From Sideroxydans sp. (lineage in GTDB: Bacteria > Pseudomonadota > Gammaproteobacteria > Burkholderiales > Gallionellaceae), in the NCBI GenBank assembly GCA_013791855.1, contig VMTA01000023.1, forward strand, positions 1 through 64,000: a stretch of DNA of 64,000 nt, written 5' to 3'. Positions 11,754-11,879 of the stretch are shown piece by piece. Both the position numbers and the translations under genes were made by a program. Every line of letters begins with the position of its first letter. Positions within the stretch are counted from its first letter, which is position 1. Under the pieces are notes generated by a model that saw only the letters and a program-made list of their open reading frames with translations, did not search any database and had not been told where the DNA came from.

Positions 11754-11784
11754 AAAAAAATCCTGTGGCGCACCGCGCCACAGG
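11754..11784 (-). terminator. intrinsic terminator upstream of the ferredoxin gene
   Basis: CCTGTGGCGC-GGT-GCGCCACAGG (10 bp perfect arms) then A + TTTTTTT on the minus strand. Confidence 0.8.
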
Positions 11785-11853
11785 TCAGGGCCGCCGGACG
11801 AGACCGTCCGGTCAGGGAGTGCCCGCAGCACAGGGGAATACTGCAGGCCGGCG
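11754..11853 (-). ncRNA. candidate sigma-54-dependent sRNA or terminator-containing 5' leader (~100 nt)
   Basis: Predicted +1 ~11853; hairpins 11848-11821, 11811-11794 and 11784-11762 followed by U7 (11760-11754). Confidence 0.55.
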
Positions 11854-11863
11854 TGAGCAACAA

Positions 11864-11879
11864 TGCAATCGCCGTGCCA
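11864..11879 (-). promoter_or_regulatory. sigma-54 (-24/-12) promoter
   Basis: TGGCACGGCGATTGCA: TGGCACG-N4-TTGCA, GG-N10-GC spacing exact; adjacent to divergent sigma-54 activator gene. Confidence 0.85.

Follow-up and report, generated by a model that had tools for sequence, protein, structure and literature searches.

We identified a candidate small RNA (sRNA) of about 100 nt in Sideroxydans sp., encoded on the minus strand of the window, by which we mean the whole 64,000-nt stretch of contig VMTA01000023.1 that was analysed. The RNA is preceded by a sigma-54 promoter with predicted activator sites, ends in an intrinsic terminator and lies divergent to the gene of a sigma-54 activator (Table 1). 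Sequence comparison lends it good support as a candidate new sRNA family, which would be controlled by a FisR-type activator in Betaproteobacteria that oxidise iron and sulfur. Our preferred reading, to which we give a probability of roughly 0.7, is that of a discrete, trans-acting sRNA under its own FisR-type regulator, which would be induced by reactive sulfur and would block ribosome binding sites; part of the transcription would run on into the operon downstream. The comparisons described below support the promoter, the enhancer, the RNA core, the terminator, the linkage to the regulator, the independence from the downstream gene and the FisR cysteine signature.

Table 1. Features of the candidate sRNA locus and its neighbours in the window.
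Feature	Position	Strand	Evidence
Sigma-54 -24/-12 promoter TGGCACGGCGATTGCA	11864..11879	minus	Exact match; position kept in all activator orthologs examined
Candidate sRNA, ~100 nt	11754..11853	minus	Fold z-score -5.2; covariance-model match 11754-11821, 74 bits; 26 related copies
Hairpin 1 (5′ hairpin, variable sequence among relatives)	11822..11847	minus	Fold and alignment
CUCCCUGA, C-rich conserved element, proposed anti-Shine-Dalgarno seed	11812..11819	minus	Columns (nearly) invariant in alignments A1 and A2
Hairpin 2 (CUGA...UCAG type in relatives)	11791..11815	minus	Alignment and structural alignment
Hairpin 3, intrinsic terminator (10 bp, 11784-11762, and U7, 11760-11754)	11754..11784	minus	Terminator scan; helix 99.2% paired across copies
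YfhL-type 4Fe-4S ferredoxin, first gene past terminator	11453..11707	minus	NCBIfam NF033683
CcoG	10026..11456	minus	TIGR02745
DUF302 protein	9430..9975	minus	PF03625
Octaheme cytochrome, tetrathionate reductase family	7800..9467	minus	TIGR04315
Cytochrome b561-type membrane subunit	7191..7796	minus	PF01292
Proximal enhancer dyad TGCCATATACGGCA (predicted activator site)	11968..11981	minus	Centre ~-122; block conserved upstream of all copies
Distal enhancer dyad TGTCATTTGAGGCA (predicted activator site)	12000..12013	minus	Centre ~-154
FisR-type sigma-54 activator (PAS_4, AAA+, HTH_8)	11995..13332, start maybe 12013	plus	Pfam

A sequence-only reading of this DNA had claimed the promoter word on the minus strand at 11879-11864 and had quoted 100 nt of RNA (11853-11754) with three hairpins; the word and every letter proved exact, and all three hairpins are present in the fold. 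The +1 at 11853 was placed by its distance of 26 nt from the first base of the -24 word. The minimum free energy of the RNA is -57.6 kcal/mol, compared with -39.0 +/- 3.6 kcal/mol for shuffled sequences, none of which (0/200) was as low. Hairpin 3, with its T7 tail, was the single site returned by the terminator scan, and the final nucleotides of the CUCCCUGA element run into hairpin 2. A perfect sigma-54 word is by itself not above chance, since by our estimate a genome this large would contain about one; the promoter stands above chance because it is found again in relatives together with the RNA core and the terminator.

Relatives were collected in two ways, from whole genomes of the genus and from a named species collection. 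At every activator ortholog examined (73-95% identity), the opposite strand carried a sigma-54 promoter and, behind it, an RNA 90-106 nt long with a T-run terminator at its end. The 5′ hairpin of the RNA differs between copies; the 3′ two thirds keep one design, made up of an unpaired stretch of the [U/A]CCUCCC type, a hairpin bounded by CUGA/UCAG, its loop mostly C-rich, and lastly the terminator. In the clade of the window CUCCCUGA is kept, but hairpin 2 no longer has its C-rich loop. When 26 copies were aligned by structure, 90.1% of cells paired, and 7 pairs had changed at both positions, against a mean of 3.0 in shuffles. The covariation score of this alignment, 0.151, was higher than that of any of the 500 shuffles and of every slid control (best slid control 0.064), which we take as support rather than proof, since the alignment was made to fit the structure and was built from related sequences. 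Hairpin 2 is just 80% paired in the model alignment. In the Sulfuricella copy (L086) the terminator differs at most positions and its helix is still kept. The U tract, U7 in the window, is mostly U8-U10 in relatives, and so has the at least seven U associated with Hfq-type sRNAs. Conservation or covariation of the hairpins in relatives, which the sequence-only reading had put forward as a check, was found in the form of a conserved core and compensatory changes across the 26 copies.

The covariance model recovered the RNA from 17 of the 34 genomes of the genus, from another Gallionellaceae genus (L238) and from 4 of 22 Sulfuricellaceae-like genomes. Across 400 sampled genomes of the order, matches in other families scored below 35 bits and resembled terminators without a sigma-54 site, and were rejected as homologues, although this sample was scored under stricter filters by which weak homologues may have been lost, and the L086 copy itself scores 35 bits. 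Orthologs of the activator were present in 14 of the 17 RNA-positive genomes of the genus against none of the 17 RNA-negative genomes (hypergeometric p ~5e-7, by our own calculation, which ignores relatedness). Three genomes (G012, G029 and G023; L040, L042 and L252) have kept the RNA, the dyads and the ferredoxin with no activator ortholog adjacent, which speaks against our preferred reading, and their seed reads CUCACUGA. A gene for a NiFe-hydrogenase-like large subunit lies upstream in G012. Paralogs of the activator (~54-59% identity) were considered as carriers of related RNAs and were dismissed, their sigma-54 sites preceding protein genes. At L065-L067 and L069-L072, a second FisR-like activator (~55% identity) has a sigma-54 promoter ~145 nt downstream of its own gene, and this promoter fronts a small gene that by eye is NifX-like (dinitrogenase cofactor family).

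The sequence-only reading had mentioned the adjacent regulator but had missed its FisR type, which is the source of the likely signal. We read the activator as a FisR-type regulator (a PAS domain with three cysteines, AAA+ and a Fis-type HTH) because of its domains, the spacing of its three cysteines, the homologues found beside sulfur genes and the published work on FisR. It is 95% identical to the activator of a MAG named Sideroxydans lithotrophicus (L089). Its sensory domain contains exactly three cysteines (57, 68 and 75), which are invariant in 19 orthologs and in 11 more distant relatives. The best match in the plasmid collection was a protein of Cupriavidus metallidurans CH34 (51.7% identity), whose cysteines, at 53, 64 and 71 when counted from a start codon chosen by us, have a spacing identical to those of the window protein. 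We take these to be the same numbers as in FisR of C. pinatubonensis. The CH34 gene is divergent to genes for a persulfide dioxygenase-like MBL protein and an SQR-like flavoprotein, both named from their translations; at comparable loci (L106, L107) the neighbours matched best to the NCBIfam models for Blh sulfur dioxygenase and type III SQR, with scores below the full-length cut-offs.

FisR is a sigma-54 activator that senses reactive sulfur via cross-links among three conserved cysteines (PMC9774590, PMC12170894). In Acinetobacter, the divergent arrangement and the sulfide response were shown by deletion, with a protein that is without these cysteines (PMC7315123). By analogy, the regulator in the window would respond to reactive sulfur (sulfane sulfur). 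The locus shares the divergent sigma-54 promoter, the domain order and the three-cysteine spacing with Cupriavidus FisR and its pdo/sqr operon (PMC9774590, PMC7315123, PMC12170894). However, identity is about 50%, and the first product of the FisR promoter is a dioxygenase/SQR mRNA, whereas that of the window promoter would be the RNA.

Tandem dyads with a consensus near TGYCATTTATGGCR are common to the copies upstream of the promoter, and are present also at the RNA copies of G012, G029 and G023 and at a free-standing copy described below. One dyad joined to the promoter at 70-100 nt is a pattern unique in the window's own genome, where it occurs at the RNA site; within the genus it was found only in the 17 RNA genomes, mostly at the RNA alone and with a few extra matches. 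These putative binding sites lie upstream of the RNA, as expected for a sigma-54/activator-dependent sRNA. In C. metallidurans CH34 (L331, 3331-3500), TTGGCAG repeats and TGCCAACTTGGCA were seen between the FisR-like and dioxygenase-like genes; these half-sites resemble the dyads of the window, with a spacing one base shorter.

The sequence-only reading had offered a choice between a discrete sRNA and an attenuator, the latter being a 5′ leader of the ferredoxin operon that would gate its expression through regulated read-through at hairpin 3. The arrangement in the window would suit such a leader, as RNA and operon share a strand, the ferredoxin start (11707) is 47 nt beyond the terminator and, as had been noted from the sequence, no second promoter was found in between (the scan for sigma-70-type promoters gave none in 11600-12050). 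Moreover, a second copy in G010 precedes a DUF302/octaheme operon. However, the RNA is kept before unrelated genes. Past the terminator, Gallionellaceae have the ferredoxin, L084, L085, L088 and L090 have an alpha/beta-hydrolase-like gene, and L086 has aat (the last two named from reading translations), and the activator and RNA remain paired while the downstream gene changes between Gallionellaceae and Sulfuricellaceae. A second copy in G025 is free-standing between rplQ and a dacA-like gene, with enhancer half-sites, a promoter (TAGCACGATTTTTGCT) one letter off consensus and no redox genes; at the first copy in this genome the RNA is intact and the ferredoxin looks degraded. The distance from terminator to ferredoxin ranges from 47 to ~160 nt.

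Folding also spoke against a leader. By partition function the terminator helix was formed in all copies (~9-12 pairs), with less than one pair to upstream sequence, and no conserved antiterminator was found in any of these folds, the terminator pairing within the last 35 nt. An alternative fold suggested earlier, between the 5′ CCGGCC and GGCCGG past the U tract, exists in the window and is absent from the two nearest relatives (G017 has GGCCGA and G032 AGCCGC), and attenuation through this pairing was rejected. The locus does share with transcription attenuators an intrinsic terminator between promoter and first gene; unlike them, it has no conserved antiterminator, no conserved leader ORF or leader peptide was noticed, and the RNA is kept where the operon is absent. 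We therefore consider gating of the operon improbable as the main function and favour a discrete RNA, because the downstream gene varies, one copy is free-standing, the terminator helix is the dominant fold, the alternative fold is unconserved and the RNA is linked to its regulator.

Some transcription of the operon from the same promoter is compatible with a discrete RNA. In G027 (L034, G027:C62, 4633) and G007 (L035, G007:C16, 5435), the DUF302/octaheme operon is preceded by a promoter of this type that retains a remnant of the 5′ hairpin but no RNA core, C-rich hairpin or terminator; these control regions are apparently copies that have lost the sRNA part. Such a promoter can thus serve the operon, which makes read-through in the window plausible, and partial read-through from the sigma-54 promoter into the window operon is on this comparison both possible and likely. 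A strong terminator right behind a promoter can also be a fixed brake or insulator, holding sigma-54 transcription of the downstream genes low; the RNA would then be inert, and its 5′ hairpin does vary freely. We consider this very unlikely, as the C-rich element and hairpin are conserved in two families and the RNA is retained without the operon. In L041 (9789) and L044 (701), a nifU-like gene that lies downstream of the octaheme cluster is itself preceded by a sigma-54-like site (TGGCACGTGGCTTGCA), hinting at regulation shared with iron-sulfur or nif-type genes.

The discrete sRNA would be expected to act through its most conserved single-stranded part, which is complementary to strong Shine-Dalgarno sequences. 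Among the anti-Shine-Dalgarno elements proposed from the sequence, CUCCCUGA is this part; the hairpin-1 loop and the GCCCUGA linker are peculiar to the small clade of the window. In the window's own genome, TCAGGGAG is found before the ATG of soxA, dsrE2, two FadL-type porin genes, an MBL-fold hydrolase gene and others. At C23 (L159, L160), a dsrE2 gene and a FadL-type porin gene lie 550 nt apart, each with TCAGGGAG before the start codon, which places two candidate seed sites near each other. Seed sites in this genome numbered 19 against 1 for the reversed pattern, a misleading contrast because reversal is no control for Shine-Dalgarno sequences; RNA-negative genomes have broadly similar counts, and the contrast was rejected as target evidence. 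Seed sites showed no enrichment relative to genomes lacking the RNA, and the CUCACUGA variant was not accompanied by more TCAGTGAG sites. The ribosome-binding site of soxA was equally conserved in orthologs with or without the RNA; that of dsrE2 is variable and not conserved in most relatives. We regard soxA, dsrE2 and other sulfur-oxidation genes as only candidate targets.

These target-site tests gave pairing no support, and the RNA could be real and instead titrate a protein, in the manner of CrcZ or RsmY, or another RNA, with no pairing to Shine-Dalgarno sequences. CrcZ, which is itself sigma-54/CbrB-controlled, sequesters a protein (PMC7602753). The loops, however, carry no conserved GGA or A-rich repeat, and the conserved unpaired element is C-rich and Shine-Dalgarno-complementary. 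A sponge of this kind is in our judgement unlikely, and pairing with ribosome binding sites is the preferred mode of action.

We compared the RNA with known families and regulators. An Rfam search returned no family matching the RNA and no match in the window. The best scores were 23.4 bits for RF02837 anti-hemB (gathering cut-off 49.5) and 15.4 bits for RF02278 Betaproteobacteria toxic sRNA (cut-off 50), in one relative only. As these lie far below the cut-offs, a known Rfam family was rejected as the identity of the RNA, and the covariance search that the sequence-only reading had advised places it in no Rfam family. RF02837, RF02278 and the alpha-r14/NfeR1 sRNAs share unpaired CCUCCCU-type elements, hairpins and a terminator with the RNA, whose CCUCCCUG word recurs unchanged in the anti-hemB consensus and is shared by the RF02278 model; control region and genomic place differ. 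The alpha-r14/NfeR1 sRNAs are of the C-rich anti-Shine-Dalgarno kind, with a CCUCCUCCC motif (PMC10746234) that can be likened to the C-rich unpaired element of the RNA, and S17 (PMC11722255), together with RF02278, offers a further comparison of this C-rich kind. Among sRNAs driven by sigma-54 and an activator are Qrr (LuxO), GlmY (GlrR), CrcZ (CbrB) and NrsZ (NtrC) (PMC7602753). The locus resembles these in its specific activator gene, its sigma-54 promoter with upstream sites, its short RNA and its intrinsic terminator. In contrast to them, the RNA is followed by a redox operon in one family and its regulator is a one-component FisR-type sensor, where theirs are two-component response regulators; no sequence relation to them was found in Rfam. 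In the open-access literature searched, we found no regulatory RNA for Sideroxydans or under a FisR-type regulator. Activator-driven and C-rich sRNAs are a kind already known, and within that literature a FisR-type input is not described for an sRNA.

Lastly, we propose a mechanism for the locus, in which we infer the expression of the RNA, its signal, its use of Hfq, its mode of action and its targets. Rising reactive (sulfane) sulfur would switch on the divergent FisR-type activator via the three cysteines of its PAS domain. The activator would bind the tandem TGYCA-N4-TGGCR dyads at ~-122 and ~-154 and drive sigma-54 RNA polymerase at the -24/-12 promoter, and transcription would end at the U7 terminator to give the ~100-nt RNA. 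Its C-rich CUCCCUGA, doubled in most relatives by a C-rich hairpin loop, would pair with the Shine-Dalgarno regions of targets and lower their translation. In Gallionellaceae, the sRNA gene heads the ferredoxin/CcoG/octaheme operon, which is probably fed by read-through from the same promoter. A more far-reaching version, in which this would be the first sRNA directly under a sulfane-sulfur sensor, damping translation of SoxA, DsrE2 and other sulfur-oxidation proteins while read-through feeds the octaheme operon, we put forward tentatively and hold to be rather doubtful.

Sideroxydans lithotrophicus ES-1 is a culturable relative that grows on iron and on thiosulfate (PMC10734462), and the existence of culturable relatives makes the sRNA proposal testable. 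If true, the reactive-sulfur response would gain an RNA output, comparable to Qrr in quorum sensing and CrcZ in the response to carbon source. Moreover, one promoter, one RNA and one regulator would then provide a simple handle on how electron transfer is adjusted in facultative iron and sulfur oxidisers.
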